Positions 780 through 20,170 of a stretch of DNA of 35,020 bases are shown here, piece after piece; position 1 is the first letter of the stretch, and each line of letters starts with the position of its first letter. The notes below the pieces were generated by a model. It had not been told where the DNA came from. It was given only the letters and a program-made list of their open reading frames with translations, and ran no database searches. The translations under genes and the position numbers were made by a program. Source of the DNA: a virus; the IMG/VR virus record IMGVR_UViG_3300007776_000030, positions 1 through 35,020 of that record; one strand, 5' to 3'.

Positions 780-857
780 TGTATTAATTCCTTTTTGGTT
801 GTTTAATATTGTATCTACCATATTATATCTTGTTAAGGCTTTTGTTTGCCCAGTAAA

Positions 858-885
858 CTATGTAGCCCTTATTGGGACTACATAG
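858..885 (-). terminator. Hairpin after the capsid/HNH region, possible terminator
   Basis: Inverted repeat CTATGTAG-CCC / GGG-a-CTACATAG: 11 paired bases with one bulge and a 5-nt loop. It lies just beyond the second copy of the capsid 3' end. Only a short T run (TTT) follows on the minus strand, so it could be a weak intrinsic terminator or an mRNA 3'-end stabilising or processing hairpin. Confidence 0.5.
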
Positions 886-895
886 TAGTCAATCG

Positions 896-924
896 TTAAG
901 CACTAGCACAAACGTCTACTCGTA
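896..924 (-). repeat. Second copy of the capsid gene 3' end (29 bp, 27 identical)
   Basis: On the minus strand this reads a codon series ending LR-V-DVCASA-stop, almost the same as the true end of the major capsid gene at 2192-2220 (LR-T-DVCASA-stop). 27 of 29 bases match. The only differences are two adjacent bases, changing Thr to Val. The two copies bracket the HNH endonuclease gene. No long frame leads into this copy from the HNH side, so it is a relic gene end, not an expressed C-terminus. Confidence 0.85.
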
Positions 925-951
925 AGAATATTATACTTCACTATACCTCAA

Positions 952-2118
952 TTAATCCTTAAACCCTCTAAATATATAACCCATCAATTGCCGCGGTCTA
1001 ATATTATCAGAGTATTTTGGAGATACAGTCATCTTATTATTGATATTTATGGCTCCTCCTATAGAACTTCTGGCGCAACCATATAGCTTACTAGCTTCTT
1101 TTACGCTGCTGCACATACCTACCTCAACCTCCTTCCACTCTTGCCTATAACCAATACACCCTTTTTCTCCGTTACCTTTCCTCTTGGGTTTCAAATTATC
1201 AGCTGCACAGTTTAGAGGGTTACTATCTTTAAACGCGATACCTGGCCAGTCTTCACGGAATAGCCTAGCAACTACCCTAGCTGTTTTAACTTTCTTGTAC
1301 TTGCCTTTTCCTATTGGTATTGAGTACATTGACACTATACCCCCTGCTCTACTCTCTACACCTTTGTAGGGTTTTAACCACCTCTCTTTCACTTTATTGT
1401 ACATCCTACCATCCTCTGTAACAAGGATGGCAGGATTATCGGGGTGTGGTAACGAGATGGTATCCTCTACTGGTAATTGGTTAGGTACGAAAGCAACTGT
1501 GCCCACCATATTACACTCTTCCGGATGGTATTCTCTCCACACTATCTCGTGTGTTTTGTAAGCCTCTCCGGTATTTGAGGGTATGCTTTTATTGTGTTTT
1601 ATCGTGGCTGATATGCCATGACCAGCTTGCCGTAACGTACCTGTAAAACCTTGACTATATGCAGCTTCTACTAAGCTACTGTATCTACCAACTTCCACTT
1701 CCTTAAATACTAGCTTGGTAACCATAATTCTAGTATACCTTCCACCTACCAGGTTTAATTTATGAGCATGAATAGAATTCTCGCTTGGAGTCATCCACTC
1801 TAAATTACTTATAGCTACATTAGCGGGGTTGCCGTCTATATGATTAACAGTATCTTTATTGTGTGTATTAGTTATAAATGCTTTAGCGAGTAGTCTATGC
1901 AGTAGTACCGTCCTGTCTTTCAAGTTAATAGTGTAATCGTACTTACTTTTAATTGTTTGTGTGTTTCGTCTCCTCATTACTTTATCTAGGTAACGTTTAC
2001 GGCTAAGAGAGTAGACCTCTCCGCAATCGAATATTATGTAGCCGGGAAACTCATCAAGAACGATACCGCCGTCTTGACCACATAAATTTTGTTCTTGTTT
2101 TGTTGTGCTTCTTTTCAT
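952..2118 (-). CDS. HNH homing endonuclease with two NUMOD/HNH-like halves
   Basis: 388 aa. Residues about 20-115 form a NUMOD4 plus HNH module: a FPGYIIFDCGEVYSLSRK strand region, then HRLLAKAFI, VNHIDGNPANVAISNLEW and MTPSENSIHAH, the usual HNH core of phage homing enzymes. A NUMOD1-like DNA-binding segment follows (VEVGRYSSLVEAAY, residues about 140-200). The second half repeats the layout in degenerate form (ILVTEDGRMYNKV, KTARVVARLF, NPLNCAADNLKPK, VEVGMCSSVKEASKLYG), with the HNH His replaced, so probably only the first site is catalytic. The gene lies immediately 3' of the capsid gene between duplicated capsid ends and looks like a mobile insertion. Its start has a good AAGGAAT site, which is buried in a hairpin at 2121-2150. 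Confidence 0.9.
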   Translation of the reverse strand: MKRSTTKQEQNLCGQDGGIVLDEFPGYIIFDCGEVYSLSRKRYLDKVMRRRNTQTIKSKYDYTINLKDRTVLLHRLLAKAFITNTHNKDTVNHIDGNPANVAISNLEWMTPSENSIHAHKLNLVGGRYTRIMVTKLVFKEVEVGRYSSLVEAAYSQGFTGTLRQAGHGISATIKHNKSIPSNTGEAYKTHEIVWREYHPEECNMVGTVAFVPNQLPVEDTISLPHPDNPAILVTEDGRMYNKVKERWLKPYKGVESRAGGIVSMYSIPIGKGKYKKVKTARVVARLFREDWPGIAFKDSNPLNCAADNLKPKRKGNGEKGCIGYRQEWKEVEVGMCSSVKEASKLYGCARSSIGGAININNKMTVSPKYSDNIRPRQLMGYIFRGFKD

Positions 2119-2120
2119 AT

Positions 2121-2150
2121 AATTCCTTATATTTATATTTATAAGGAATT
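2121..2150 (-). promoter_or_regulatory. Perfect hairpin enclosing the HNH gene ribosome-binding site
   Basis: Arms 2121-2130 and 2141-2150 are exact reverse complements (aattccttat / ataaggaatt), extendable by one more pair, with an 8-nt loop. On the minus-strand mRNA the 3' arm holds AAGGAAT, the Shine-Dalgarno of the HNH gene, 2-3 nt before its ATG. Folding would hide the site. This resembles the hairpin control of T4 homing endonuclease genes, where only transcripts starting inside the hairpin are translated. Confidence 0.7.
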
Positions 2151-2190
2151 ATAGTGTAAAACTACTTAAAGAAGTCTTATGTGGGAATCA

Positions 2191-3360
2191 CTAAGCACTA
2201 GCACAAACGTCTGTTCGTAAAAGTGCTTTTTCATCCAAAATAATTCCAGCATACCAGAAGTTATATGAGAAGAATCCAAGTGTACCATATGGGTTTTCAT
2301 TTGAAACCACTGCAGGAGACTTAGAGTTGAATTTAATCTTACCATGACCTTTTAGTCCTACAGTCGAGAATGAACCTTGAGTAGGGAATAAGATAGGGAA
2401 AGCATCAAACTTACCGTCAGTATGTGATAATGAACCTTCGTAATCTGTAGGGATAGCAGCACCTTTTCCAGCTTCAATTACAGCAGTTTCAGATTCAATG
2501 AATCTTACATCGTGCATAGCTCCAACTTCACCTTCAGCAACATTCGTAGCAGAAGCATATTTGTAGAATGGAATGTAAGCAAACTCTTCAGCAGCTCCAC
2601 CACCTCTAGTTAATGTTTCTAAATCAAACTTAACCTCAGGCCCAATAATCGCATAGTACGCTTTATTGATAGTTCTAGTGTCAATTTTAGTTGAACCAGT
2701 TACTGCTGAAGTATTCTTTTTAGCTCTATTTCTAACTAATTTTTTAGCAGCTTTTCTGATTACATCATAATCAACTTGGAATAAGCTATCATCTGAACCA
2801 TCAGCCGCAATACCTGCACCTAATCCATCAACTGAAGTCGCAGTACCAGCAAACATTCTGTTGGTTGTACCTAGCATATCTAATTGAATTAAATCTTCAG
2901 TTCTTCTGTTAGCTAATCTTCCTAATTCTTCTCTGTATCTAGTTTGAATAACATCTTCAGAGAACATTTCAACTTCGTCAGTATAGTCAATCATTTCACC
3001 ATATCTAGCAAATGAAGTTTCAAATGTAACTTTTTTGATTCCAGTTTTATTAACCGCTCCAGCACCTTCGCCTAATGCAACATTAGCATTTAGTTCAGCA
3101 GACACAGCTTCTAAATCTCTTGAAGATAAGTACCCTTTTGATGCAAAATCAGGATTACTAGTTTCTCTATCATATATGTGTAGGAATTTTGAAATTTTAA
3201 ATGTCTTACCTTGTTTTAATGGCATAGATTTTCTATCAACTAATTGTCCATAGATGTTAGTTTCATTAGCAGCTTTAATCCCCGCCTTGTCATAATAATG
3301 TGTTATCGTGTTTGCACCAGCTGATGCAGTTGTTGTACCGTTTCCGTAAATTTGTGGCAT
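2191..3360 (-). CDS. Major capsid protein, N4-gp56-like family
   Basis: 389 aa. It forms the icosahedral shell. The N-terminus (MPQIYGNGTTTASAGANT, then ITHYYDKAGIKAANE) and the block TFETSFARYGEMIDYTDEVE with RYREELGRLANRRTEDLIQLD are typical of N4-gp56 family capsid proteins. The frame runs from an ATG with AAGGAA 6-7 nt upstream to a TAG. It lies directly after a scaffold-like gene, the standard head-gene order. The last 9 codons are repeated, with one codon changed, 1.3 kb downstream on the far side of the HNH gene, so the present C-terminus was probably restored when the endonuclease gene inserted. I am confident about the capsid role and less sure of the exact subfamily. Confidence 0.88.
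   Translation of the reverse strand: MPQIYGNGTTTASAGANTITHYYDKAGIKAANETNIYGQLVDRKSMPLKQGKTFKISKFLHIYDRETSNPDFASKGYLSSRDLEAVSAELNANVALGEGAGAVNKTGIKKVTFETSFARYGEMIDYTDEVEMFSEDVIQTRYREELGRLANRRTEDLIQLDMLGTTNRMFAGTATSVDGLGAGIAADGSDDSLFQVDYDVIRKAAKKLVRNRAKKNTSAVTGSTKIDTRTINKAYYAIIGPEVKFDLETLTRGGGAAEEFAYIPFYKYASATNVAEGEVGAMHDVRFIESETAVIEAGKGAAIPTDYEGSLSHTDGKFDAFPILFPTQGSFSTVGLKGHGKIKFNSKSPAVVSNENPYGTLGFFSYNFWYAGIILDEKALLRTDVCASA
2192..2220 (-). repeat. Capsid gene 3' end, partner of the repeat at 896-924
   Basis: These bases encode the end of the capsid protein (LRTDVCASA and the first two bases of its stop, minus strand). The same segment recurs at 896-924 with two base differences. Together the copies define the borders of the inserted HNH gene. 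Confidence 0.85.
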
Positions 3361-3393
3361 ATTTTTTCCTTATATTTGCTTAATCACAAGACC

Positions 3394-4554
3394 TTACGAC
3401 CTTGCTTCCAATTGCTTATACCATTCGTTAAACGATTCGTCGTTATCATCTAGGTAGTCCACAACACCTTTAGCAGCTCCTGCTGTTTTAGTAGTTGCTG
3501 CTGCTTTTCTTGCTTCAGAAGCCTGCTCTGTAGCTATTCTGGTAGCATCTGCTTTTTTCGCATCGTCTACAGCTTTAGCATTTGCCTGAGCATCTTTTGT
3601 TTTAGTTTTAGCTTGAAGTTCCGCAGCCTTGCCCTGTTGTTCTAGGTCAGCATAGTACATACTACCAGCTTCCATATAGTACTCAAGGTCAGTTTTACTG
3701 CCGTCTCCATATATTTTCATCTTCATTGCCATAGGTGCTACTTTATCGTACACACCATTTTTGACATCTGAATGCAGTGCCTGTATCATCTTTGGGTCGG
3801 ACACTAGTTTTGCCCTAGATGCCTCATCCCATTGATTGCTTACGACATGCTGTGTAATTGTACCTTCTGGGTCAGAATCTATAGATGTTAGTACATCTAT
3901 TAATTCCAACTCTTCATTACTCTTACCATAATTTTTAGGTGAATATTCTTCTGCTTTTTCGTCACTAATATCAAGTGCATCTATGCCTGCTTGTTTCAGT
4001 AGTGCCGCCGCAGCATCTTTATCTCCCTTTAGTACATCAATCACAGTATTAATTTGGTCAGTAGTTATGCCATTCTCTTCCATTGCACTGATAGTCTTCC
4101 TCCACGGAGCAATCGTTTGCATTTTCTTAGTATAGTCCATACTCTGTCCAAACATTTTACCAAAATTAGCTTTCATTTCATCAACTGTAAATTCAAATTC
4201 TTGACCATTAGCCTTGAATTTATGTATATCCTTGGTTGGTTCTTTTATTTCTAATTCTTTTTTTTGATCTACATCACCCGTAGATGCCTCAGTTTGAATA
4301 GTAGCTGTTTCAGGTTTTCCTTTGTCTAACTCTGCCTTTTGTGCAGCTTCATCAGGTTCCTTTGTATCGACAGCCTCTTCTCCCTTGGTATCTACGGCAG
4401 CATTATCGGAATCCATTGTAGGTTGTTCCGTATCAGCCACTTCTCCTGCTTCTAATGCAGATTTAGCTTCGTTAAATGCTGCATCTAATGCATCATCATC
4501 CATGGCATATAGCTCATCATCTGTTGGTTCAGTGTATTTTAATTCATCAGCCAT
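3394..4554 (-). CDS. Acidic scaffold-like protein
   Basis: 386 aa from ATG 4554 (MADELKYTEPTDDELYAMDD). An in-frame ATG six codons earlier overlaps the previous gene, and GGAGAG sits best for the later start. The first 130 residues are strongly acidic and repetitive (Asp, Glu, Thr and Ala, with several DTKEPD-like runs) and look disordered. Residues about 130-290 are mixed (FKANGQEFEFTVDEMKANFGK), and the C-terminal third is a long Lys/Ala coiled coil (KTKTKDAQANAKAVDDAKKA) ending in a basic-aromatic tail. This charge pattern and the position between the portal block and the capsid gene match phage scaffolding proteins. The role is inferred from layout and composition. Confidence 0.75.
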   Translation of the reverse strand: MADELKYTEPTDDELYAMDDDALDAAFNEAKSALEAGEVADTEQPTMDSDNAAVDTKGEEAVDTKEPDEAAQKAELDKGKPETATIQTEASTGDVDQKKELEIKEPTKDIHKFKANGQEFEFTVDEMKANFGKMFGQSMDYTKKMQTIAPWRKTISAMEENGITTDQINTVIDVLKGDKDAAAALLKQAGIDALDISDEKAEEYSPKNYGKSNEELELIDVLTSIDSDPEGTITQHVVSNQWDEASRAKLVSDPKMIQALHSDVKNGVYDKVAPMAMKMKIYGDGSKTDLEYYMEAGSMYYADLEQQGKAAELQAKTKTKDAQANAKAVDDAKKADATRIATEQASEARKAAATTKTAGAAKGVVDYLDDNDESFNEWYKQLEARS

Positions 4555-4555
4555 A

Positions 4556-4882
4556 TTACTCTCCTGGTCCATCTAGTTCCATTAGTTCAGCACGAGCACC
4601 TTCTCCCAGCTGGTGAATCATAAACATAGCATACTTGAAGTTACTAGCCGCAACTAAGTCTTCCATTACATCTGGTCTATGTCCACCTTGTTTTGTTTGA
4701 GGTGCAGCTAATAACCCAACACTGTCAAGCACTTTCTCTTGTAGATACCAACCCTCAACTATTGCTTTATAATCTGGGTTCTTTTCTAGTCTCTCTAACT
4801 TAGTTAGCAAGTCTGCCCAATGCGAAATCTCTATTGTCTCTAATTCTGTATTATCAGAAATACTTTGGTTATTTTCATTCAT
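4556..4882 (-). CDS. Hypothetical head-module protein
   Basis: 108 aa, MNENNQSISDNTELETIEIS at the start, with AAAGGAT upstream of the ATG. The body contains DLLTKLERLEKNPDYKAIVEGWYL, a helical segment common to small uncharacterised proteins found between portal and scaffold genes. The end (ELMELDGPGE) overlaps the scaffold start region, so the two are probably translationally coupled. No catalytic motif, signal peptide or membrane segment is visible. A virion-assembly role is inferred from position. Confidence 0.72.
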   Translation of the reverse strand: MNENNQSISDNTELETIEISHWADLLTKLERLEKNPDYKAIVEGWYLQEKVLDSVGLLAAPQTKQGGHRPDVMEDLVAASNFKYAMFMIHQLGEGARAELMELDGPGE

Positions 4883-4969
4883 CCGAAAATCCTTTCTTTT
4901 TATTGATATTTGCTTTTAAACTCGTTCTTTGGAGCTGACAATTTAGTCCTGTGAACCAATCTATACTGA

Positions 4970-5248
4970 TTAGTAACCTTGTGCGGCTAATCCCTGTGGC
5001 TGTTGAGCCATACCACCCATCTCTGGTGCAACTGGAGGCTGTTGTTCTCCACCACCCATCTCTGCTTGTAGCTCCATAATGGCTTGTTCAATAACCTCTT
5101 GAGGAACACCTTGAGCAATTAACTCATCTGGACTAATTCCATTCATTAATGCTTCTTTTACTTTTGCTACTAGTTGGGGGTCAACCTGAGGAGACATTGC
5201 TCCGCTTGCTGCAAATCCTTGTTCTGCTAATCCCTGTTTATTCATCAT
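4970..5248 (-). CDS. Hypothetical small Gln/Gly/Pro-rich head-module protein
   Basis: 92 aa starting MMNKQGLAEQGFAASGAMS behind AAGGATAA. A central helical stretch (VDPQLVAKVKEALMNGISPD, then ELIAQGVPQEVIEQAIMELQ) is flanked by low-complexity Met/Gly/Gln/Pro segments (EMGGGEQQPPVAPEMGGMAQ). Small proteins of this style often follow portal genes in podovirus-like genomes. Function unknown. It is the third gene downstream of the portal on the same transcript. Confidence 0.7.
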   Translation of the reverse strand: MMNKQGLAEQGFAASGAMSPQVDPQLVAKVKEALMNGISPDELIAQGVPQEVIEQAIMELQAEMGGGEQQPPVAPEMGGMAQQPQGLAAQGY

Positions 5249-5266: not shown

Positions 5267-5521
5267 TTATATATTTCTTTTTGTTGCCTGTATATGTGTG
5301 CCTACATCATAAAGCATCCTATCTGACATACGGTCAACAGATGCAGGGTCTATATCTGTAGCATTTGCCACATCTCCCCGAGTAAGCCCAAATCCAACAT
5401 GCTCATTTAGCCATGACTTCTTTCTTAGTTCTTCAGCCCCATATTGAGCTAGCCCCTCCAGATTCGCCTGATACTCTTTCCCTAGTACGGTCTTTTCAAA
5501 TAATTCTTGTATTTTTCCCAT
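5267..5521 (-). CDS. Hypothetical small protein downstream of the portal
   Basis: 84 aa, MGKIQELFEKTVLGKEYQAN at the start. The ATG follows the portal stop by 3 nt, and AAGGATAAC precedes it, inside the portal gene end. It is soluble and predicted helical, with no motif I recognise (DVANATDIDPASVDRMSDRM in the middle). Tight spacing implies co-expression with the portal. Confidence 0.7.
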   Translation of the reverse strand: MGKIQELFEKTVLGKEYQANLEGLAQYGAEELRKKSWLNEHVGFGLTRGDVANATDIDPASVDRMSDRMLYDVGTHIQATKRNI

Positions 5522-5524
5522 ATG

Positions 5525-7600
5525 TTATCCTTTTATCCCTAATTGTTCGTTAGGACCGCCTAAATCCTTTTGCATCTGAACCAGATTAGCACTAGCCATA
5601 AAGTCTAGTTCTTTTTTCTGTACATCCATTTCGTACTGTTGACGAAGCTTAGCGATGTCTGCTTCTAGTTTCAGCTTAGCCTTCTGAGCTTCTTTTTCCA
5701 GTGCTTCTTTGTGAGAATATCCTTCGTCCGCCTGAATGAATTCCATATCAGCCAAATCAGCCTTAGCTTTTACTAACTTAGCATCAGCTAGAACCTTTTG
5801 TGTTTGAGCATCTTTATATCTTGCTTGAGCTGCTTTTTCTTGAGCATCTCCTTGGCTTTCTTGCGAGTCACTATGTACTTTGCCAATATCTGCTTTAAGT
5901 TTAGCATTAGTTAGCTTAGCATTTTCTAATTCTAATTGCCGTAGTTCTTGTTGAATTGGATCTGGCTGAGGTTGGAATGTTTCGATTTCCTTAGCAAGTT
6001 CTGGCATCTTCTGTAGCCTTGCTATCTCAGCTCTAATCATTTTACTCTCTTCTGGATCCATTCCTTGCTGACCTGTTTGCATCATAAATGCTAACTCTTG
6101 AGCTTTAGCTTCATTCTCTTCTGCAGTGGCTACATGAATTTCAATGTCAATTAGTCCAGACAAGTCATCTCTGTTTATAGTTACAAACTCTTCGTTTGTG
6201 TATCGAACAATTTCTTGCTCACTTAGGAACTCAGCATCATATGACAACCATTTTCTCATAATTGGTTTTATCGCATTTTCACTGATATTTCTAACTATAT
6301 TGTTTCTTCTTACCGCTGTAGCATCCAGCACACCTCTAGCTCCGGTTGCACTTTTACTTAATCCGCTGTTACTGATACCGCCACTGAACCCCATTGTTCC
6401 AGTAGCTGATTCAATCTCTTTATTCATTAACCCCAGTGTATCATACGCAGACCCAGGGATCTGATTGTACCCACCAGACCAGAATTGTCCAAATCCTGGG
6501 TTGAATTCGAATATTGAGCCACTCAGGAATTTCTTCATATTGTGGGCATCTAGTGCTCCTTTGGGAACACCAACTTGCCCATTATTACTTTGAGCCATAT
6601 TATCCATAATACCTCTAAGTATACCAGTTTTGATCTTTTGTTGATCACTAATTAAGTTTCTGGTTGGTTCTCCGTGCATTTTGAACGGTACTGCATTATT
6701 TGGTACAATTACAAAAGGTATCTTTTTGTCTGGGTATGGATTTCCCTGCAGTCTTATTATTGTATCATTGACCCAAGCACACACTATCGGTTCAGCTATC
6801 CCATCTTCATCGACATCGTAATTTCCCCAATATTCATAAACTACTAGCTTTTTTCGAGGATTATCTTCGTATTTAAACACAGTATCGTCTTCTGGTTCAT
6901 AGTCAACATCTGTATTATCTAACGAAGTGCTGTGTAGTTTTTCTAGATTCTTGTATCTGCCATCATTTTTTAATGTGCTTAGGTCGCTTTCATATCTATA
7001 AATTATAAATTGACAATTATCAATATCATCTTGGCAGGTTGGATCTATGTATATGTCTTCTATTCTGCATACTTTAGCGGTAGGCTTGTTTTTCAATATC
7101 TTAATAGTTTCTACTATTTGTTCACCGGCAATGTATTCTTGACCAGTAATTGGATCTGTAGCTATTACTTTTTGAGCAGCCTCTGATTTTTCTTCTTCAT
7201 ATTCCCATCCTGTTTGAATTATTGCAGTACCATCCCTATCTAACACTTTAGCTAGTTTGCTTACGAAATTGTATCTGGCGAATTGTCTACAGAATTGAGT
7301 ATTTAGTAGTATTTCTGCTTGTCTCGCACCTTTGCCATCTTCATATGTTATTGGATTTGCTTTTATTATATCAGGTTGCGATACGAATGGATCTATTATT
7401 GATGGAATCAGCCAATTGTGTTGTCTCTTTATGTCTCCAGAAACTACTGCTGATTTTCCTTTTACTTCGTTACCGTAGGGCTTTTGATCAAACTCATCTC
7501 TAGCTGCATACACTTCAAGCATAATATCATTATGATACCTCTCTGCTGAGCTGTAATCTGCTTTCAAAGCTTTAAGTATGGCTGTCTTGTTGAGCTTCAT
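5525..7600 (-). CDS. Portal protein
   Basis: 691 aa, the usual size of a podovirus portal. The portal forms the dodecameric ring at the capsid vertex through which DNA enters and leaves. The N-terminal part has SAERYHNDIMLEVYAARDEF and NWLIPSIIDPFVSQPDIIKA; the middle has VCRIEDIYIDPTCQD and YEYWGNYDVDEDGI, hallmarks of the P22/N4-like portal superfamily. Then IPFVIVPNNAVPFKMHGEPT and LISDQQKIKTGILRGIMDN follow. From about residue 500 it becomes a long charged coiled coil (QELRQLELENAKLTNAKLKA onward), consistent with a barrel extension. The start is an ATG with AAGGGAAG upstream. It heads the head-gene block and is preceded by a 300-base structured gap. Confidence 0.88.
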   Translation of the reverse strand: MKLNKTAILKALKADYSSAERYHNDIMLEVYAARDEFDQKPYGNEVKGKSAVVSGDIKRQHNWLIPSIIDPFVSQPDIIKANPITYEDGKGARQAEILLNTQFCRQFARYNFVSKLAKVLDRDGTAIIQTGWEYEEEKSEAAQKVIATDPITGQEYIAGEQIVETIKILKNKPTAKVCRIEDIYIDPTCQDDIDNCQFIIYRYESDLSTLKNDGRYKNLEKLHSTSLDNTDVDYEPEDDTVFKYEDNPRKKLVVYEYWGNYDVDEDGIAEPIVCAWVNDTIIRLQGNPYPDKKIPFVIVPNNAVPFKMHGEPTRNLISDQQKIKTGILRGIMDNMAQSNNGQVGVPKGALDAHNMKKFLSGSIFEFNPGFGQFWSGGYNQIPGSAYDTLGLMNKEIESATGTMGFSGGISNSGLSKSATGARGVLDATAVRRNNIVRNISENAIKPIMRKWLSYDAEFLSEQEIVRYTNEEFVTINRDDLSGLIDIEIHVATAEENEAKAQELAFMMQTGQQGMDPEESKMIRAEIARLQKMPELAKEIETFQPQPDPIQQELRQLELENAKLTNAKLKADIGKVHSDSQESQGDAQEKAAQARYKDAQTQKVLADAKLVKAKADLADMEFIQADEGYSHKEALEKEAQKAKLKLEADIAKLRQQYEMDVQKKELDFMASANLVQMQKDLGGPNEQLGIKG

Positions 7601-8240: not shown

Positions 8241-8858
8241 CTATGCTAACCTATCCATTCTATTTATCCATCCCTCTAAATACTTAAAATATTTATCTGG
8301 ATTTCTTTTTACTAGTCTAACATAATTAGACTTCATAGCACTTAACATAAATGACTTCAGAAGTAATCCTTCATTCGCGTCAGATACAACTAATAATGCA
8401 CCTCTTGTTTTTGAACCATAAGCCCCGTCTATGGTGCTCAAAGCATCGAAGTTACTAATAGGATTAAGGTCTAATTTAATCAATGCTTCCTGTATTGACT
8501 TAATCGCCATTTTGGGACTATTAGTGAACATATCAGCATATGCAACCACACATTCTTTTGGGAAATCATCTAGTCGAGCACCAGCTAGATATTCAGAATA
8601 GAATTCGTATGCTAATTCTCTTACTTTGATACTCTCCATCGTGCTGTTAATTATGAATAAATCAGTTTCTGTCCATTCGCTAGTATCTTTAGTAATTCCA
8701 TTTAACTTTGCAACCTCTTCTAGGTATTCAAATATACTTGCATCTTTGTGTCTATATTTGTATATGCCGTAAGGAGCTGTAATGTCTTTTTCACCTTTAT
8801 TGTAATGTGTTTCTATTCCTTCTGCTTTCGCTAGATGGTCTAATATTACACCTGTCAT
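8241..8858 (-). CDS. Endolysin, GH108-like N-acetylmuramidase with peptidoglycan-binding C-terminus
   Basis: 205 aa. It degrades host peptidoglycan at lysis. The N-terminus (ILDHLAKAEGIETHYNKGEK, then APYGIYKYRH) matches the GH108/secretion-activator lysozyme pattern, in which the Glu of an EGG-like motif is catalytic; here it is Glu13 in AEG. The C-terminal part (QEALIKLDLNP, IDGAYGSKTRGAL and the closing RNPDKYFKYLEGWINRMDRL) matches the peptidoglycan-binding_3 domain normally fused to this family. There is no signal peptide, so export depends on a holin. Its ATG overlaps the stop of the upstream holin-like gene (ATGA). Confidence 0.85.
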   Translation of the reverse strand: MTGVILDHLAKAEGIETHYNKGEKDITAPYGIYKYRHKDASIFEYLEEVAKLNGITKDTSEWTETDLFIINSTMESIKVRELAYEFYSEYLAGARLDDFPKECVVAYADMFTNSPKMAIKSIQEALIKLDLNPISNFDALSTIDGAYGSKTRGALLVVSDANEGLLLKSFMLSAMKSNYVRLVKRNPDKYFKYLEGWINRMDRLA

Positions 8859-9304
8859 TTTTTATCCTTGTCTGCTTCTGTTTTACTACTTCCGTAGTAG
8901 AAGCTTAATATTTGCGATACATATCCACCAACAAATCCTACAATAATAGCTACTGTACTATTTTCTATACTTAGTGTTCCGTTTAATAGTAGCACAAACA
9001 ATATGAATGAACTTACTACCGTGAAGATACCTATAAGACTACCAGTATTCTTTAGTAACCAACTATCACTTTTGCTTAATTCTATCGTCATGTTCCTTGC
9101 GTTTTGCTTATCCATATATATAAGTTCCATTTCTTTCGCTAATGCGACTTCGTTTCTTCTTATGGTTGCAATATCACTTTTGTTTAATTCTCTTTTCTTT
9201 GACAAATCGAGACCCGTAACTTTCCTAATTCCTTCAAGTGCTACCTCTTCGGTAGCATTCTTGAATATACTAATACCTGCTTCTAATAAAGCTTCTACTA
9301 TCAT
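8855..9304 (-). CDS. Holin-like membrane protein (3TM/GTA-holin style)
   Basis: 149 aa. The N-terminal half is amphipathic and charged (EVALAKEMELIYMDKQNARN), followed by two strong membrane helices at about residues 88-108 and 116-138, and a short charged tail (YYGSSKTEADKDKK). This arrangement, including the YxGSS end, matches the 3TM holin family found next to endolysins. Its stop overlaps the endolysin start by 4 nt, and its own start overlaps the response-regulator stop by 4 nt (ATGA), so all three are translationally coupled. Holin function is inferred from topology and context. Confidence 0.75.
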   Translation of the reverse strand: MIVEALLEAGISIFKNATEEVALEGIRKVTGLDLSKKRELNKSDIATIRRNEVALAKEMELIYMDKQNARNMTIELSKSDSWLLKNTGSLIGIFTVVSSFILFVLLLNGTLSIENSTVAIIVGFVGGYVSQILSFYYGSSKTEADKDKK

Positions 9305-9930
9305 TTATTGCTCCTTGTTATTCCATTCTGTTTCTTCGCTGTAGTATGAGCACTATCATCAACATCATCTTTATGAAGTAATGACATAGCCAGTAAGTGG
9401 CACTCGTTACAAACATCAACAATGTCACTGTCGATACATTCTAATGTTGCCTTGTCTTTTATTAATTTTAACATTGAGTTAATCTTAATAAGTTTAGCAT
9501 TGTTTTCTTTGTCTTCAGCTTCATTATGGAAGAATTTATTATGAAGTTCAACAATATGAACAACACTTTCTATAATCTTCTTAGGGTTTATCGGTTTAGT
9601 GAAGTATCCGTTTACACCAATTGATACAGCTCTTTTCAGCCAATCAACATCACCGAAGGCTGATAAGACTATTATAGGAACATAATAATTCCTTCTCTTA
9701 ATCATCCTAGCCATTTTTAAACCATCCATAAATGGCATATTTATATCGGTTATCACACAATCTATTTCATCTCTAAATTGTGTAAATTTCTCAACACCTT
9801 CTTTACCGTTTGTAGCTATATGAACTGTTTTAAAATACAACACAAACATATCAGAAAACATTGTTCGCGTTACTTTATCGTCCTCAACATATAAAATAGT
9901 TATGTTTTTAGTTATTTTAGTTTGTTCCAT
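9301..9930 (-). CDS. Single-domain response regulator (REC) with CxxCH-containing helical tail
   Basis: 209 aa. Residues 8-125 form a complete receiver domain: acidic pocket E16-D17-D18 (ILYVEDD), phospho-acceptor D62 (VITDINMPFMDG), S90 (IIVLSAFGD) and K112 (GYFTKPI) are all present, so phosphorylation should be possible. No DNA-binding or enzymatic output domain follows. Residues 126-209 are a charged helical tail containing VDVCNECHLLAMSLLH, a CxxCH arrangement that in a cytoplasmic protein is more likely metal- or redox-related than haem c. The receiver style is common in Campylobacterota. It overlaps the cytochrome-like gene upstream by 19 nt and the holin-like gene downstream by 4 nt. 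A receiver protein inside a phage lysis cassette is unusual. Confidence 0.88.
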   Translation of the reverse strand: MEQTKITKNITILYVEDDKVTRTMFSDMFVLYFKTVHIATNGKEGVEKFTQFRDEIDCVITDINMPFMDGLKMARMIKRRNYYVPIIVLSAFGDVDWLKRAVSIGVNGYFTKPINPKKIIESVVHIVELHNKFFHNEAEDKENNAKLIKINSMLKLIKDKATLECIDSDIVDVCNECHLLAMSLLHKDDVDDSAHTTAKKQNGITRSNK

Positions 9931-10436
9931 ATTTTATGAAGCTCCCTCTCACTTATTCCATTTTCATCAATCGCTGGCATTAAGGGATTATTGATTGGAT
10001 TTCTAACATATGTTGCAAATTGCTTAAAATCTTTAAATCTATAACTTAAATCCTTTAACATATTATTTGGGTTATTGTGACATTTAATACATAATTGATT
10101 TGATAATGTTGTAATATTATTGATAAATGCATCATCTTTTAAAATAATATATCTTATATCATTTTTTAGATTACTCATATTATCCTTAACATTATTCATT
10201 GAAACAACACCGTAGCCAACCAGCCCTGCCATAACTACTAAATAAAAAGTTAATAATCTAATATTTGTATCAGATACCTTATTTTCTATTTTTAGAATAC
10301 TCTCTTTAATATTTGTAATCTTTTTACTAATTTCATTATAAATGCTACTTTGCTGAACGCTCTGACTATCCATAATCTCTTCGAGATTTTTAAACTCATG
10401 TGTTATCTTTTCACTTTCAGCAGAAGTTAGTCCCAT
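9912..10436 (-). CDS. Membrane-anchored monohaem cytochrome c-like protein
   Basis: 174 aa. Residues 1-58 are charged and coiled-coil-like (IYNEISKKITNIKESILKIE); residues 60-80 form one membrane helix (RLLTFYLVVMAGLVGYGVVS). The C-terminal 95 residues should then be periplasmic and carry a haem c site, C116-I-K-C119-H120 (LCIKCHNNPN). They end like a class I cytochrome: NPLMPAIDENGISERELHKI, with Met153 in an MP context as a plausible distal ligand. The closing helix matches the LSxxEL...I pattern of small cytochromes. Haem attachment would need the host's Ccm/Ccs system. It lies between a holin-like gene (10-nt overlap) and the response regulator (19-nt overlap). The function is unknown; redox or energy-state sensing linked to lysis is only a hypothesis. 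Confidence 0.75.
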   Translation of the reverse strand: MGLTSAESEKITHEFKNLEEIMDSQSVQQSSIYNEISKKITNIKESILKIENKVSDTNIRLLTFYLVVMAGLVGYGVVSMNNVKDNMSNLKNDIRYIILKDDAFINNITTLSNQLCIKCHNNPNNMLKDLSYRFKDFKQFATYVRNPINNPLMPAIDENGISERELHKIWNKLK

Positions 10437-10780
10437 TTTAAATCCATTCCGTCAATATCTGATTCTTTGCTTTTTAATGCTTTATTCTTTAATTTTTCAG
10501 CATATATCATAACCATATCTCTACCAAGTATACCTGATAATCCAGCCAGTATATAAGTTATAACTTCACTTGCACCTATTTCTGCAGCGGTTAATCCAAC
10601 ACCAACTGAGGAGATACTTGCAAATAGCATTACACTTATATATAATGCGATTGTTCGACCCTTATCAATTGAACCATCATCTTTTATAGGATGGTCCATT
10701 GTTTTTCTAGCATAGGTATCAACCGCCATAGTGAGGCCCATCACTAGACCAATCCCTAGGAGCTCAATTAATCTACTCAT
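10427..10780 (-). CDS. Holin-like small membrane protein
   Basis: 117 aa from ATG 10780 (MSRLIELLGIGLVMGLTMAV), chosen because AAGGAG lies 9 nt upstream; an in-frame ATG ten codons earlier has no such site. Three hydrophobic segments at about residues 4-20, 43-68 and 72-92, with the last carrying ITYILAGLSGILGRDMV, a glycine-rich pattern seen in class I (LydA/lambda-S-like) holins. The tail is charged (KALKSKESDIDGMDLKWD). It opens the lysis cluster, directly after a tail gene. It is probably a holin or antiholin partner of the membrane protein at 8855-9304. Confidence 0.7.
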   Translation of the reverse strand: MSRLIELLGIGLVMGLTMAVDTYARKTMDHPIKDDGSIDKGRTIALYISVMLFASISSVGVGLTAAEIGASEVITYILAGLSGILGRDMVMIYAEKLKNKALKSKESDIDGMDLKWD

Positions 10781-12508: not shown

Positions 12509-12685
12509 TTACTTGCAGTATGTTTTGTTGTTTATTATAACTGGACTTTTACATTCAGTTATCTCTATAGTCTTCTTTATGTCACATATATTATTTTTGT
12601 AACTATTACAAGTTGCCAATGTTTTGGTGTTTGCACAGCCAGTTAGCACAAAACTTATAATTAGTGATATTAACATTATTTTCAT
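12509..12685 (-). CDS. Very small Cys-rich lipoprotein
   Basis: 58 aa, read directly from the minus strand: ATG 12685 preceded by AAAGGAATATCAA. The N-terminus is a lipoprotein signal peptide (MKIMLISLIISFVLTGCANT) with a lipobox LTGC, so Cys17 should be lipidated. The mature part is only about 42 residues and holds four further Cys (C26, C34, C45, C57). Candidates are an outer-spanin-like lipoprotein (it is 1.7 kb upstream of the lysis cluster) or a superinfection-exclusion lipoprotein that masks the phage receptor. The sequence does not decide between them. Confidence 0.75.
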   Translation of the reverse strand: MKIMLISLIISFVLTGCANTKTLATCNSYKNNICDIKKTIEITECKSPVIINNKTYCK

Positions 12686-13478: not shown

Positions 13479-15608
13479 CTAAGCTACATATCTACATAGA
13501 CGAACGCCTAATGTGCCAGCACTATCGTCTCTAGCTGAACCAATTGCAGTTCTAAATATACCGCCATCAATTCCATCGAACTCATTCCATCTACCACCAA
13601 CAATAGGTAGTACATTTGCTTTTTCTCTTATGTAATTTAGGTCATTACCAAATTCAACAGTACCATCTTTACTTTTTCCAGTAGGTAATGCTAATCCTAT
13701 AGCTGTTTTCTTGTATCCATCGCCAGATGTATGGCTACTAAATACTTGTTTTGTACTGTTGCCTAGATAATAACTTTTTGTTTTTAAGTCTTTAATATAT
13801 AAAATATCATAACCTTCTATAGTTTCCAAATTAGCCGCAGTTAAATCTTTTAGCCTTTGAGTAGGTTGTAAAACAAGAACACTATCTGCAATACATTTAT
13901 TTAAGTTACTAACTCCACTAGCAATTTCATAACAGTTACCAGATAAATCTATAACACCACATTCTTGACCATTGTGAGATGTTTTAGCTAAGTTACTTGC
14001 ACTACCTGTTAGTGCTAATTTAGCATATCCTGCACTTTTATATGTAACTGAGCTATCAGTTCTGTCACCTAAGTCATCATTATTATTACCCTTCGGCAGG
14101 TATGGCTTTCTGTCTTTGTAAGCACAGTATGTAGCATCTACACTTGCTTGACTATGTGCTAATGCCATTCTTGCTAACATACTATATATGAATGATGAAG
14201 TTACAGCATAATCGGCACCTCTTGATTTACAAGCTTCAAATACAGCACCATTAGTAGAGCCTGAAACTCCAGTAATTTTATCAATACCATTATAATCTGT
14301 ACCACTCTTTGTTGATACTGGTCTTTGATTTTGTAATGATACCAATATACCATCAACTCCATCAACTCCATTAGAATTACTATTAGTAAATTTATCTACA
14401 AATACCCCATCTTGTTCTATTCCACCATCCATAAATGCTCTTTCTAATACATATCCTGTAACAGGAGCACCTTTATAGTCTATTCTATTTTTAGTTGTAC
14501 CATCATCATATATTTTATAATACGATTTAGGTATCCATACCATTATAGAACCTGTAAGTGGATGTATATAATTACCATAATTTGGACTTGACTTATCATT
14601 TGTTCCTTCCATTTCTGCCATATCTGATGGAATGTTAGGACAGATACCTACAGAAAATCCTTGAGTTCCACAGTCATTAAATATAACAGCTTTAATTGTT
14701 ACATTTACTGTTGTTACTTCGCCTTTAGCTCCCATATCGCCTATTGCATACACAGTATATGTAAAGCTTCCGCCTATTTTAGTGTCACCTGCAACTTCAA
14801 ATCTTATAGTGTTAGAGTTTCTAGTTGAAGTTGTAACAGTCACACCATTAGCACTTACTATTTCACCAATTTCATATCTTGATATTTCGCCATCTGCATC
14901 TGTAGAACCACCAAACACTACATCAGTAGTTCCTATCAACATTTTAGTGTCAGGCACTGAAGGTGCTGTTGCGATATGATTATCTTTATATGTAAATGTA
15001 TGAACTGATTTAATACTACTATTTCCTAAATTGTCTATACCATAAACTTTTATATCTACGGTTGCTCCATCTGGTTTATCTTCAGGATATGTATGTGCAA
15101 CCGAAGCTCTGTTCCCATTTGCCGGTACAACTTCTAAATCGCTTCCGTCATTCCAGCCAACCTTAAAGTCAGTTATGTTTCCTTCAGTTAATAAAGAAGA
15201 AGCACTCATAGAAATTTCTACATTTCTAAAGCCGTTAGCAATAGTGTCTGAACCAGTTATGATAGGTACAGTTACAATTTTTGAACCTCCGCCATTCGCC
15301 TCAGCTCTTACTTCTTCTATCTCGATTTGACTTTCTTCAAGCTTTTTGGCTACGTCTTGTAGCTGAGTCTCTAAGTCTTTCTTGTCTAGCTGAACATAAT
15401 AGTTTTTCTTTAATTTGTATTTTTCTTTAGTTTTATCACTAAATATTCTATATGTGTTACCAGAAGCTATGTCCATTACATTAGCGAATAGATCGGCAGA
15501 GTCAGTTTTTTGAGCTTTGTTTATCCATTGTAAACTTCTTGATATAACTTCATCTAGTGTTAACGTTGAATTATCACTATTCATTATCGTTTTTACTTTT
15601 AATCCCAT
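13479..15608 (-). CDS. Receptor-binding adhesin: shared N-module, Ig-like domains, FGE/C-type-lectin fold (DGR-target paralogue)
   Basis: 709 aa, ATG 15608 with AGGAGAC upstream. Residues 1-85 are the module shared with the genes at 10794 and 12700. A short coiled coil follows, then two Ig/PKD-like domains (about 115-310; FKVGWNDGSDLEVVPANG; VTVNVTIKAV). The C-terminal 400 residues (DCGTQGFSVGICPNIPSDMA; GSIMVWIPKSYYKIYDD; HNGQECGVIDLSGNCYEIAS) are a formylglycine-generating-enzyme/C-type-lectin-like fold as in DGR targets. Its last 41 residues (LPIVGGRWNEFDGIDGGIFR ... LGVRLCRYVA) correspond to a variable region but do not match the template repeat at the DNA level. It is a close paralogue of the DGR target at 18080-20170 from the Ig domains on, with a different N-terminus. 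Confidence 0.85.
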   Translation of the reverse strand: MGLKVKTIMNSDNSTLTLDEVISRSLQWINKAQKTDSADLFANVMDIASGNTYRIFSDKTKEKYKLKKNYYVQLDKKDLETQLQDVAKKLEESQIEIEEVRAEANGGGSKIVTVPIITGSDTIANGFRNVEISMSASSLLTEGNITDFKVGWNDGSDLEVVPANGNRASVAHTYPEDKPDGATVDIKVYGIDNLGNSSIKSVHTFTYKDNHIATAPSVPDTKMLIGTTDVVFGGSTDADGEISRYEIGEIVSANGVTVTTSTRNSNTIRFEVAGDTKIGGSFTYTVYAIGDMGAKGEVTTVNVTIKAVIFNDCGTQGFSVGICPNIPSDMAEMEGTNDKSSPNYGNYIHPLTGSIMVWIPKSYYKIYDDGTTKNRIDYKGAPVTGYVLERAFMDGGIEQDGVFVDKFTNSNSNGVDGVDGILVSLQNQRPVSTKSGTDYNGIDKITGVSGSTNGAVFEACKSRGADYAVTSSFIYSMLARMALAHSQASVDATYCAYKDRKPYLPKGNNNDDLGDRTDSSVTYKSAGYAKLALTGSASNLAKTSHNGQECGVIDLSGNCYEIASGVSNLNKCIADSVLVLQPTQRLKDLTAANLETIEGYDILYIKDLKTKSYYLGNSTKQVFSSHTSGDGYKKTAIGLALPTGKSKDGTVEFGNDLNYIREKANVLPIVGGRWNEFDGIDGGIFRTAIGSARDDSAGTLGVRLCRYVA

Positions 15609-16016: not shown

Positions 16017-16424
16017 TTAATATCCAACTTCTGCTTTTAATCCATTGCAAATAGCAAGACATTCAGCTTTGTGTGCTTTGTATTTTATAACCTTAGCATC
16101 ACTACTATCTTTATTTATCATAGCTAATTCATCGGCAAAATCGTATTTTTTAGCAATATGTTCTTTACATATTGTTCTGCATCTATTGATTTGTGCAGAA
16201 TTGCTAACTAACTCTTTAAATTCAGTCTTATCTATAATTTTACAATCAATTCTTGTATCTTGTGAAGCAATAAGTGCATCTATCTTAGCTGTATCTTCAC
16301 ATTTAACTGATACTACTGGCACATCAAATTGAAACACCTGAATATCATCATCTACTGGATTTCCATTAAACTGTAATACTGTATATTCAGTTTCTACTTT
16401 ATTAAATTTTACATATTTAAACAT
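16017..16424 (-). CDS. Hypothetical protein following the DGR reverse transcriptase
   Basis: 135 aa, ATG 16424 with AAAAGGAAT upstream inside the reverse-transcriptase gene end; the two overlap by 16 nt. It opens MFKYVKFNKVETEYTVLQFN, with a beta-rich first half (VFQFDVPVVSVKCED) and a helical, Cys-containing second half (NRCRTICKEHIAKKYDFADE). Its place and size would suit a tail-fibre assembly or chaperone protein, but I see no diagnostic motif. It could also be a DGR accessory gene; no known accessory family matches by eye. Confidence 0.7.
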   Translation of the reverse strand: MFKYVKFNKVETEYTVLQFNGNPVDDDIQVFQFDVPVVSVKCEDTAKIDALIASQDTRIDCKIIDKTEFKELVSNSAQINRCRTICKEHIAKKYDFADELAMINKDSSDAKVIKYKAHKAECLAICNGLKAEVGY

Positions 16425-17446
16425 TTTTTTATTCCTTTTGGTAATATTTTACCCATATTGTTTGAAATTAATATTCTTTTATAATATGGAATTGTTGCAG
16501 TTCCTACTGCGTGACCAATACTTGATACAACGGAATTTATATCAAGTTGCTTTACTGACTTTTTAAACTTGTATAAGCTATGTTTTCTTACAAACTTAAT
16601 GCTTCTCCAGGTTCTATATCCTACAAAATTAATACCTTTTTTAATTGGTTCTATAGTCCAGTGTGATAATTCCAGATTTAATTTACTTTTTGCAAACTTC
16701 TCACACTCATTTTTAAATAAGACTGCTTCATTTTTTGTTAATCCTATGGCAACAAAATCATCAACATATCTTACATAAGATTTTATTTTTAATGTCCTTT
16801 TAACAAATTGGTCAAGTTCATTTAAATAAATCAGAGCATAAAGTTGAGATAATAGATTTCCAATAGGTATTCCTTTTGGTGTATCCATCTTTGCGAACCT
16901 AACCATAATATCTACAAAACGTTTATCTTTAATTTTCTTTTCAAACAGCTTTCTTAAAATATCTCTATCTATTCTATAGAAAAACTTCTTAATGTCAAGT
17001 TTAGCATAATATAAGTCTCCACTATATTTTTTCATTTCGGACTGAGTATATTTACTAGCCTTATGTGTTCCACTATTTTTTCTACAAGCAAAACTTGTAT
17101 CAATAAAAGATTGATTAAATATATTATAGATTGTTCTATATATAGAATGCTGTATAATTATATCTCTAAAGTTTGGAGCATATATAGTTCTTTCTTTAGG
17201 TTCATAAATAGTAAATTTATTATATTCTGAAATTTCGTAAGTGCCTTGTTGTAATTCTTGGTAAAGCAAGTCAAGGTTACTACCTAAATGCTTTTCAAAT
17301 TCCATAACTTTAGGCTTATTTCTTTTGCCTTTTCTAGCATCAAGATAAGCATAGTAGATATTGTCTCTACTGAATGCTATCTCATATATATTCCCAATTA
17401 ATTTAGAAGTTCTAAGATTTTCAACTCCAAATTTAACATTTTTCAT
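16409..17446 (-). CDS. DGR reverse transcriptase
   Basis: 345 aa. It reverse-transcribes the template repeat RNA with errors at adenines to diversify the target gene. Motifs: SFACRKNSGTHKA (about 118-130), palm Asp in AKLDIKKFF (D151), IPIGNLLSQ (193-201), the Gly-Asn-x-x-Ser-Gln form typical of DGR enzymes (group II intron and retroviral types have other residues there), and catalytic YVDD at 227-230 (SYVRYVDDFVAIG), followed by FVGYRTWRS. The length and absence of maturase or endonuclease domains fit DGRs. All catalytic residues are intact. It is downstream of avd and the template repeat on the same strand. A GAGGGG sequence lies rather far (about 14 nt) from the ATG, so expression may be low. 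Confidence 0.95.
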   Translation of the reverse strand: MKNVKFGVENLRTSKLIGNIYEIAFSRDNIYYAYLDARKGKRNKPKVMEFEKHLGSNLDLLYQELQQGTYEISEYNKFTIYEPKERTIYAPNFRDIIIQHSIYRTIYNIFNQSFIDTSFACRKNSGTHKASKYTQSEMKKYSGDLYYAKLDIKKFFYRIDRDILRKLFEKKIKDKRFVDIMVRFAKMDTPKGIPIGNLLSQLYALIYLNELDQFVKRTLKIKSYVRYVDDFVAIGLTKNEAVLFKNECEKFAKSKLNLELSHWTIEPIKKGINFVGYRTWRSIKFVRKHSLYKFKKSVKQLDINSVVSSIGHAVGTATIPYYKRILISNNMGKILPKGIKKCLNM

Positions 17447-17673
17447 TACTCAAATTATCCCCTCTGGTATGATTTCGCTTATCGCAGGAACTTGCCTCCC
17501 TATTATTCCAGTAGCTTCATCGAAGTATCAGGATGGAATAAAAGTCGAGCGCCCACATTGTTGTTGTTATTCGCACGAGAATTGTTAGCATTAACCTGGA
17601 AAACTCCAGCATCGGTACTATTGTTCCAATTCCCACCAAGGATAGGCACTTTAAGGCAATGCCCCAGAGAAGA
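17447..17673 (-). ncRNA. DGR template RNA region between avd and reverse transcriptase
   Basis: 227 bases without a gene, holding the template repeat (17546-17646) plus about 100 bases of spacer before the reverse-transcriptase ATG. In the Bordetella phage DGR the equivalent avd-TR-spacer RNA is the substrate bound by Avd and the reverse transcriptase; the same organisation here implies the same role. In frame with the target, the repeat would read a line of Asn codons. Confidence 0.8.
17546..17646 (-). repeat. DGR template repeat (TR)
   Basis: 101 bases matching the 3' end of the adhesin gene at 18102-18202 with no gaps: 86 identical, 15 different. Ten of the 15 differences are at template adenines (coding strand), changed to G, T or C, the signature of adenine-directed mutagenic homing. 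Read in the target frame it encodes many Asn codons (GGNWNNSTDAGVFQVNANNS, RANNNNNVGAR). The 3' end differs at two C positions (GGGCGCTCG versus GGGTGTTCG), as expected for the IMH*/IMH pair. Confidence 0.93.
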
Positions 17674-18079: not shown

Positions 18080-20170
18080 TTAGGCTACATATCTACATAG
18101 GCGAACACCCACAGTATTGCTGTTATTCGCACGAGAAGTGCAAGCATAAACCCGGAAAACCCCAGCATCGCCACTATTGCTCCACTTCCCACCAAGGATA
18201 GGTAGCATATTAGCATTATCATTTACATACCAATAATCTAAACCAAATTCGGTAGTACCATCGCCATCTGTTCCAGTTGCTAATGGAAAACCTAAAGAAG
18301 TTCTAATGTAGCCATCTCCAGAAGCAGAACTATCAAATACTTGATTAGTGCCTTCTCCTATACGATTACCACTAGCATTTGCTTTAATATCTGCTATATT
18401 GATTGTGTCGTACCCTGCATCACTTGATAAATCACCTGCCACTAAATCTTTTAGCCTTTGGGATGGTTGTAAAACAAGAACACTATCAGCTATAGCTGAA
18501 TTTAGATTAGTTAAACCACTTACTACTTCATGCATATTACCAGATAAATCTATAACACCACATTCTTGACCATTATGAGATGTTTTAGCTAAGTTACTTG
18601 CACTACCTGCTAATGCTTGATTACTATATCCCGAACTTGTAAAAGTAACACTTGTGTCATCAACATCAGCTAAAGCATTATTATTACAACCTTTAGGTAA
18701 ATAAGGTGCTACATCTTTGTAAGCACAATATGTAGTAGAACTTGAAGCCTGACTATGAGCTAATGCCATTCTTGCCAACATACTATATATAAATATAGAA
18801 GTTACAGCATAATCAGCACCTCTTGATTTACAAGCAACAAATAGATTATCATAATTAGCAGTAGAAACACCTGTAATTTTATCAATACCATTATAATCTG
18901 TATCAGCAGCTGTTGACACAGGTCTTTGATTTTGTAATGATACCAATATTCCATCTACTCCATTAACACCTTTAGAGTTACTATTAGTAAATTTATCTAC
19001 AAATACCCCATCTTGTTCTATTCCACCATCCATAAATGCTCTTTCTATTACATATCCTGTAACAGGAGCACCTTTATAATCTATTCTATTTTTAGTTGTT
19101 CCATCATCATATATTTTATAATACGATTTAGGTATCCATACCATTATAGAACCCGTAAGTGGATGAATATAGTTACCATAATTTGGACTTGTTTTGTCAT
19201 TTGTACCATCCATTTCTGCCATATCCGATGGAATACTTGGACAAATACCTACTCCAAACCCTTGAGTTCCACAGTCATTATAAGTTACAGCTTCAATTGT
19301 TACATTTACTGTTGTTGTATCACCTTGTGCTTCTTCATTATCTACAGCATATACATTATAAGAAAAACTTCCACCTTGTGTTACATCTCCTGTAACTTCA
19401 AATCTTATAGTGTTAGAATTTACAGTTGAAGTTGTAACAGTTACACCACTTTCGTTTGATATATTATTGACTTCATATCTGCTTATTGTACCATCTGCAT
19501 CTGTAGAACCTGAAAAAGTAACATCAGTAGTTCCTATTGATATTTCAGTAGTAGGTTGTGATGGTGCTGTAGGTACTTGATTATCTCTATAAGTAAATGT
19601 ATGAGAAGCACTAACACTTTCATTACCTGCATTATCTATAGCTATTACACTAATATCTAATGTTGTACCATCAGTTTTATCTGTAGAGTAAGTGTGAGTA
19701 GCTGTAGCTGTATCATTATTTGCTGTTACAACTTCAATAGCACTACCATCATTCCAATCAACTTTAAAGCTTGATATGCTACCACCAACTAACAAAGATG
19801 AAGCACTTAAATTAATACTTACATTTCTTGTACCATTTGGTATAGTGCTTGAGCCTGTTACTGTGGGCAATGTTACTACATTAGTATTACTACCAACATT
19901 TTCAAGTTTATCATCAATATCTGTCTTAGTATAAGTATCAACTTTATCTGCCTTGCTTGCAATATCTATTTTTATTCCAGTGTCATCGTATACTGTATCT
20001 GTAAATACTGCTCCTACTGGAACATCTGTTTTAACTTTATTATTAATTTCTATCTTAGTATATACATCAGCAATATTAGCTTTATTAGCCTCTAGTCCTT
20101 CGTCCACTAATCTTTGTTTCTTAAATTCTCCTCCGACTTTCTGTCCGAGAAGTTCCATTGTGCTACTCAT
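18080..20170 (-). CDS. DGR target: tail adhesin with Ig-like domains and FGE/C-type-lectin variable domain
   Basis: 696 aa, ATG 20170 with AAGGAG upstream. The N-terminal 95 residues (MSSTMELLGQKVGGEFKKQR; VYTKIEINNKV; VPVGAVFTDTVYDDT) are tail-fibre-like attachment and shaft sequence, unlike the N-module of the paralogue at 13479. Two Ig/PKD-like domains follow (about 97-295), then the formylglycine-generating-enzyme/C-type-lectin fold used by DGR targets (DCGTQGFGVGICPSIPSDMA; GSIMVWIPKSYYKIYDD; HNGQECGVIDLSGNMHEVVS). Residues 657-690 are the variable region, giving a surface-exposed, diversifiable binding site; the protein closes GVRLCRYVA. Probably the phage's receptor-binding protein, with receptor range altered by the adjacent avd/TR/RT. 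Confidence 0.93.
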   Translation of the reverse strand: MSSTMELLGQKVGGEFKKQRLVDEGLEANKANIADVYTKIEINNKVKTDVPVGAVFTDTVYDDTGIKIDIASKADKVDTYTKTDIDDKLENVGSNTNVVTLPTVTGSSTIPNGTRNVSINLSASSLLVGGSISSFKVDWNDGSAIEVVTANNDTATATHTYSTDKTDGTTLDISVIAIDNAGNESVSASHTFTYRDNQVPTAPSQPTTEISIGTTDVTFSGSTDADGTISRYEVNNISNESGVTVTTSTVNSNTIRFEVTGDVTQGGSFSYNVYAVDNEEAQGDTTTVNVTIEAVTYNDCGTQGFGVGICPSIPSDMAEMDGTNDKTSPNYGNYIHPLTGSIMVWIPKSYYKIYDDGTTKNRIDYKGAPVTGYVIERAFMDGGIEQDGVFVDKFTNSNSKGVNGVDGILVSLQNQRPVSTAADTDYNGIDKITGVSTANYDNLFVACKSRGADYAVTSIFIYSMLARMALAHSQASSSTTYCAYKDVAPYLPKGCNNNALADVDDTSVTFTSSGYSNQALAGSASNLAKTSHNGQECGVIDLSGNMHEVVSGLTNLNSAIADSVLVLQPSQRLKDLVAGDLSSDAGYDTINIADIKANASGNRIGEGTNQVFDSSASGDGYIRTSLGFPLATGTDGDGTTEFGLDYWYVNDNANMLPILGGKWSNSGDAGVFRVYACTSRANNSNTVGVRLCRYVA
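18102..18202 (-). repeat. DGR variable repeat (VR) in the target gene
   Basis: 101 bases aligned without gaps to the template at 17546-17646. Coding-strand changes at template adenines alter Asn/Gln/Ser codons to Ser, Gly, Arg, Tyr, Cys and Thr (protein GGKWSNSGDAGVFRVYACTS, RANNSNTVGVR). Five non-adenine differences exist, two of them in the 3' IMH-like end. The repeat stops just before the constant end LCRYVA. Confidence 0.93.

Follow-up and report, generated by a model that had tools for sequence, protein, structure and literature searches.

How phages choose the moment at which to lyse their host is a classic question, and to our knowledge few lysis systems outside T4 take an external signal. 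The stretch of DNA analyzed here (35,020 bases, hereafter the window), a fragment of an N4/AD45-like podovirus, carries among its lysis genes a gene encoding a membrane protein with a CxxCH motif and another encoding a lone receiver-domain protein. What might a receiver and a CxxCH protein be doing between two holin-like proteins and an endolysin?

A five-gene cassette in the lysis slot

The portal protein of the window, which served as the anchor for finding relatives, is of the SU10/N4 type, and since this is so, the cassette located between the tail genes and the portal sits in the usual lysis-gene slot of such phages. The same slot holds an annotated endolysin in Vibrio phage K479. All five cassette genes are on the minus strand. 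The order given in the preliminary description made from the letters of the window (holin-like protein, CxxCH protein, receiver, second holin-like protein, and endolysin) is borne out by the ORF coordinates (Table 1), as are the overlaps of 10, 19, 4, and 4 nt between successive genes. Scanning the cassette for promoters and terminators gave no excess over shuffled sequences, and the Rfam and tRNA scans were empty.

Table 1. Positions of the cassette genes, their sites of interest, and the portal gene in the window.
Feature	Position	Strand	Evidence
Portal protein	5525..7600	-	SU10_portal E 5e-130; 55% identical to the Alteromonas phage AD45-P1 portal
Endolysin, 205 aa	8241..8858	-	PG_binding_3 (PF09374) E 1.1e-6, above cut-off; phrog_315 endolysin E 2.8e-9
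Second holin-like protein, 149 aa	8855..9304	-	phrog_1544 E 9e-6 (function unknown); phrog_565 holin E 0.04
Lone receiver-domain protein, 209 aa (receiver 12-123 plus tail of about 85 residues)	9301..9930	-	PF00072 E 1.3e-23
Second CxxCH, CNECH (C174-NE-C177-H178), receiver tail	9397..9411	-	Sequence, ORF scan
Predicted phospho-acceptor D62 of the receiver	9745..9747	-	Sequence and alignment
Membrane CxxCH protein, 174 aa	9912..10436	-	ORF; local rule (coiled coil plus single TM)
Met153, candidate distal haem ligand (LMPAI, preceding the final helix)	9978..9980	-	Sequence and host-cytochrome alignment
CxxCH motif CIKCH, residues 116-120	10077..10091	-	Sequence
Membrane helix of the CxxCH protein (approximate), about residues 61-80	10197..10256	-	Hydropathy scan, first passing window from residue 57
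First holin-like protein, 117 aa, at least two hydrophobic helices	10427..10780	-	ATG start at 10780

Hydrophobic helices and PHROG holin matches weakly suggest that both holin-like proteins are holins. The first shows weak matches with the holin families phrog_785 (E 0.0037) and phrog_6384 (E 0.015) and with the LydA-type Phage_holin_3_3 (E 0.03). The second, of which no close relatives were found in IMG/VR, is homologous to proteins present in the same slot in two portal relatives, L041 (a membrane protein, phmmer 3e-8) and L037 (1e-7). The endolysin does not match the GH108 catalytic model, although it matches both PG_binding_3 and phrog_315.

The receiver scores 83.7 bits against the PF00072 model, the curated cut-off of which is 30.2, and the complete active site previously attributed to it (E16/D17/D18, D62, S90, and K112) is present in the sequence and in the alignment with the receiver of another phage, L048. 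It therefore has the fold and active site of stand-alone CheY-like response regulators, from which it differs in being carried by a phage within a lysis cassette, in having a long CxxCH-bearing tail, and in the absence of any kinase gene nearby. No output domain was recognized in this tail, and its CxxCH motif had been overlooked in the preliminary description. No close relatives of the receiver were found in IMG/VR, and the best matches among the sampled Campylobacterota receivers are 42-45% identical to it. Since these are its best matches, and since PAS proteins of sister phages match Campylobacterota sensors (see below), the host is probably a member of the Campylobacterota, the only group sampled in a comparable manner. 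Two of the host response regulators that the window receiver matches are encoded directly upstream of cbb3 oxidase genes in Campylobacterota (L263 3138-3818 and L265 2949-3674).

The membrane CxxCH protein consists of a helical N-terminal half, which is probably a coiled coil and probably cytoplasmic, one membrane helix, and a C-terminal CxxCH domain of about 90 residues, which probably lies on the periplasmic side; the positive charges around the helix leave the topology unsettled. The single helix (near residues 57-80), the C116-x-x-C119-H120 motif, and M153 are all as first described. The Cytochrome_CBB3 profile (PF13442) aligns with residues 98-174 (E 3e-4), and its score of 21.4 bits lies under the cut-off of 27; the profile is covered almost entirely, its Met-Pro and final helix included. 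The domain is thus weakly cytochrome-like and may belong to the monohaem class I cytochrome type, with a putative haem. It shares with the Campylobacterota class I monohaem cytochromes the correct succession of CxxCH, Met-Pro, and final helix, whereas it differs from them not only in its subthreshold Pfam score but also in its short His-to-Met spacing (33, versus mostly at least 37 in the host cytochrome set) and in its fusion to a coiled coil and a membrane helix.

Whether this motif binds haem at all has to be weighed against a rival explanation, that the CxxCH serves zinc binding or thiol redox chemistry and that the protein has a structural role in lysis, for instance as an unusual spanin or an accessory to the holin. 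We give this explanation, which concerns only the CxxCH half and is compatible with all the others, somewhat less than an even chance. It is favored by the Pfam score and the His-Met spacing mentioned above, by the fact that 11 of 1000 motif-keeping shuffles reach the score of the domain against a host-cytochrome profile (12.8 bits), and by the presence in the cytoplasmic receiver of a CxxCH that is impossible there as a normal haem attachment site; what speaks against it is that both cysteines of the CxxCH protein fall in the motif and that the cytochrome profile is aligned over nearly its full length. Only three CxxCH motifs occur in the 336,026 aa encoded by the ORFs of the portal relatives and the window, and since two of them fall in the CxxCH-protein/receiver pair, their presence in adjacent genes is more than chance; the third belongs to a zinc-type HNH protein of L048.

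The CxxCH protein has no close relatives in IMG/VR and only chance matches among the named phages, and its CxxCH domain has no counterpart among the portal relatives. The search for Cytochrome_CBB3 in the 50 relatives, which was also negative, had low power, as the window's own domain falls under the translated-search threshold. The structure prediction initially proposed as a check gave no usable fold: the AlphaFold model of the protein, built without relatives, had a pLDDT of 49 and its Foldseek matches were meaningless; no solved structure convincingly resembles the CxxCH domain.

Sensory genes are linked to the lysis slot

The set searched comprised 50 portal-related contigs (2.14 Mb). Within this set, PF00072 was confined to the window and L048, in both cases in the lysis slot between the tail genes and the portal. 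L048 carries a coiled-coil membrane protein gene, then after a 4-nt overlap a receiver gene, followed by an M15-type endolysin gene and the portal gene. A third lysis-region receiver was identified in a further search in a P2-like phage, L223, where the order is coiled-coil membrane protein, receiver, holin-like protein, and amidase. All three receivers thus directly follow a protein with a coiled coil and a single membrane helix. Receiver matches in L219, L221, L222, and L224 were not counted, as they resemble genes of a cellular type situated near contig ends or outside a lysis slot.

The receivers of L048 and L223 share 37% identity from end to end, including the tail, whereas the window receiver is only 28-29% identical to them. 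Since it resembles them less than it does its best host receivers, it may have been acquired separately. A search of 298 Campylobacterota genomes (E 1e-22), made without a positive control, detected no chromosomal member of the L048/L223 receiver family.

PAS domains show the same location. Eight PAS_4/PAS_3 domains were found in seven of the 50 contigs (L022, L037, L041, L045, L061, L065, and, twice, L049), all of them in the lysis slot, and an alignment search yielded additional PAS genes in the lysis regions of L171, L172, L173/L174, and L175-L177. In nearly every case, the soluble PAS genes directly precede a gene encoding a coiled-coil membrane protein. The PAS gene of L173/L174 is flanked by spanin-like genes on one side and the endolysin gene on the other, and the first PAS gene of L049 adjoins spanin-like genes. 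The L049 genes form part of an apparent duplicated block (595-5047), with two portal and two PAS genes in tandem, the first copy of which seems to be decaying. Roughly half of the PAS proteins encoded by phages carry a cysteine pair in a tail like that of the window receiver with its CNECH. A PAS gene is also present in a T4-like phage, L167, where the PAS/membrane-protein pair has no recognized lysis genes nearby; these two genes (5272-6155), the membrane protein being small and coiled-coil, are on the strand opposite to their neighbors, and the phage has a T4-type helicase.

Membrane-bound sensors occur in the slot as well. In L061 (5129-7150), the genes encoding an M15 endolysin, a holin-like protein, and an Aer/NifL-type PAS membrane protein overlap in this order by 4 and 14 nt. 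The latter protein matches PAS_3 (E 1.7e-16) and the NifL model (E 8e-15) as Aer/NifL redox PAS sensors do, and contains RHPDMP...YWVDA, which we take to be an Aer sequence; it differs from these sensors in having no recognized chemotaxis or NifA-binding output and in its position after endolysin and holin-like genes. Three other contigs (L044, L050, and L075) carry in their lysis slot a two-helix membrane protein, the model of which (pLDDT 66) is similar (best E 1.3e-3) to the Cache/PAS domains with which WalK, TlpB, and PctA sense on the periplasmic side; this is suggestive of Cache-like membrane sensors.

The preliminary description had proposed that the window couples lysis timing or superinfection sensing to the redox or respiratory state of the cell. 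The signalling half of this reading is strengthened by the recurrence of receivers, PAS, Aer/NifL-type PAS, and Cache-like genes in the lysis slot, next to holin, spanin, and endolysin genes. The CxxCH half finds no such support, its Pfam score being subthreshold and no relative having a counterpart. Many of the portal relatives lack both genes of the window pair; conserved linkage is not lacking, however, since a receiver and a coiled-coil membrane protein occur together in two further phages. Sensors of this kind are present in only about a quarter of the 50 contigs and are therefore dispensable.

The neighbor of the sensory genes was compared with that of the other genes in the slot using a mechanical rule. 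A coiled-coil membrane neighbor was present in the case of six of the eight sensory genes versus 34 of the 302 others (Fisher p 7e-5; 0.0025 once redundant cases are left out), p-values that are indicative only, as the pattern was already known when the rule was drawn up. The two sensory genes failing the rule miss it on thresholds and by eye are like the others. Since no sequence homology was detected between the coiled-coil half of the window protein and the L048 or L223 partners, only a shared architecture is claimed for these membrane proteins.

Possible coupling of host signals to lysis timing

On our best reading, interchangeable host-derived sensory proteins would act on lysis timing via a small membrane partner, in a manner comparable to RI and RIII of T4. 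The cassette of the window would then be a signal-responsive lysis module, in which a membrane regulator of the holins is coupled to a host-derived signalling protein, a proposal that we regard as only just short of evenly balanced. The regulator would be the coiled-coil, single-helix membrane protein and its soluble partner, here, a phosphorylatable receiver. A host histidine kinase would phosphorylate the receiver and/or the outer CxxCH domain would sense the redox or respiratory state, and the coiled coil would relay the signal to the holins, so that triggering would be advanced or delayed. The regulation of the holins by the membrane protein, the binding of the receiver to the latter, the nature of the signal, and the haem are points that we infer.

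The main rival to this lysis-timing reading is that the host-derived receiver and PAS proteins are host-signalling cargo, that is, phosphate sinks or decoys rewiring host kinases late in infection, which merely occupy a permissive late slot by the portal. The relatives of the PAS proteins are indeed sensor domains of histidine kinases and diguanylate cyclases from Campylobacterota, a lone receiver lacking an output domain would serve well as a phosphate sink, and the slot holds many unrelated small genes. Yet coiled-coil membrane neighbors are commoner for sensory genes than for the other genes in the slot, the gene order is the same in unrelated phages, and a short tail motif common to several phage PAS proteins is absent from the host homologues inspected; we hold this explanation to be unlikely, though a serious competitor. 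A superinfection or lysis-inhibition sensor of the RI/RIII type, in which the outer CxxCH domain would detect envelope damage or the arrival of a further phage and the receiver would be the cytoplasmic partner, seems quite improbable. Its two-sided layout resembles that of T4 (PMC9636201), but neither protein matches an antiholin family in PHROGs, and the signals read elsewhere by PAS, Cache, and receiver domains are small molecules, redox, or phosphate.

In T4, periplasmic and cytoplasmic antiholins respond to superinfection, and RI (periplasmic) and RIII (cytoplasmic) together with the holin T provide the two-sided sensor shifting holin timing on a signal to which the lysis-timing reading likens the window pair (PMC9636201). 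The parts are different: there is no family match, and the window has a two-component receiver and a CxxCH domain, replaced elsewhere by PAS or Cache domains. In the mycobacteriophages Girr and NormanBulbieJr, two holin-like membrane proteins per cassette, LysF1a and LysF1b, one of them single-helix, set the timing of lysis, which is altered by deletion of a single-TM lysis protein (PMC13056207); they differ from the window proteins in having no reported sensory domains, the opposite predicted topology, and a Mycobacterium host. Signal-responsive lysis is thus known as a kind, and the receiver, PAS, and cytochrome-like parts are new to it; searches of the open-access literature turned up no lysis cassette described as having such parts.

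The presence of sensor genes at this location in related and unrelated phages suggests that the state of the host cell may tune the timing of bursting. More broadly, signal-gated cassettes combining a coiled-coil membrane regulator with a swappable sensor (receiver, PAS, Aer-type PAS, Cache, or fused periplasmic cytochrome domain) could be carried by many phages, among them several with a probable Campylobacterota host, and would set the moment of the burst according to the host's redox or respiratory state, a generalization that we put forward tentatively and with more doubt than confidence. If sensors do gate lysis, phages of chemolithotrophic bacteria would time their burst directly by respiratory or redox state, and a locus at which one sensor type is exchanged for another would offer a naturally occurring collection of parts with which to test this.

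Other features of the window

A 58-aa ORF at 12509-12685 with a lipoprotein-type signal (LTGC) is a candidate outer spanin. Long direct repeats (13777-14445 and 18378-19046), which are 76-88% identical, occur in the 709-aa and 696-aa tail-region genes. The reverse transcriptase of a probable diversity-generating retroelement is encoded at 16409-17446, beside a 104-nt template repeat (17543-17646), an 85% identical copy of which (18099-18202) lies at the 3' end of the 696-aa tail-region gene (18080-20170); 11 of the 16 differences between the template and this copy fall on template adenines.
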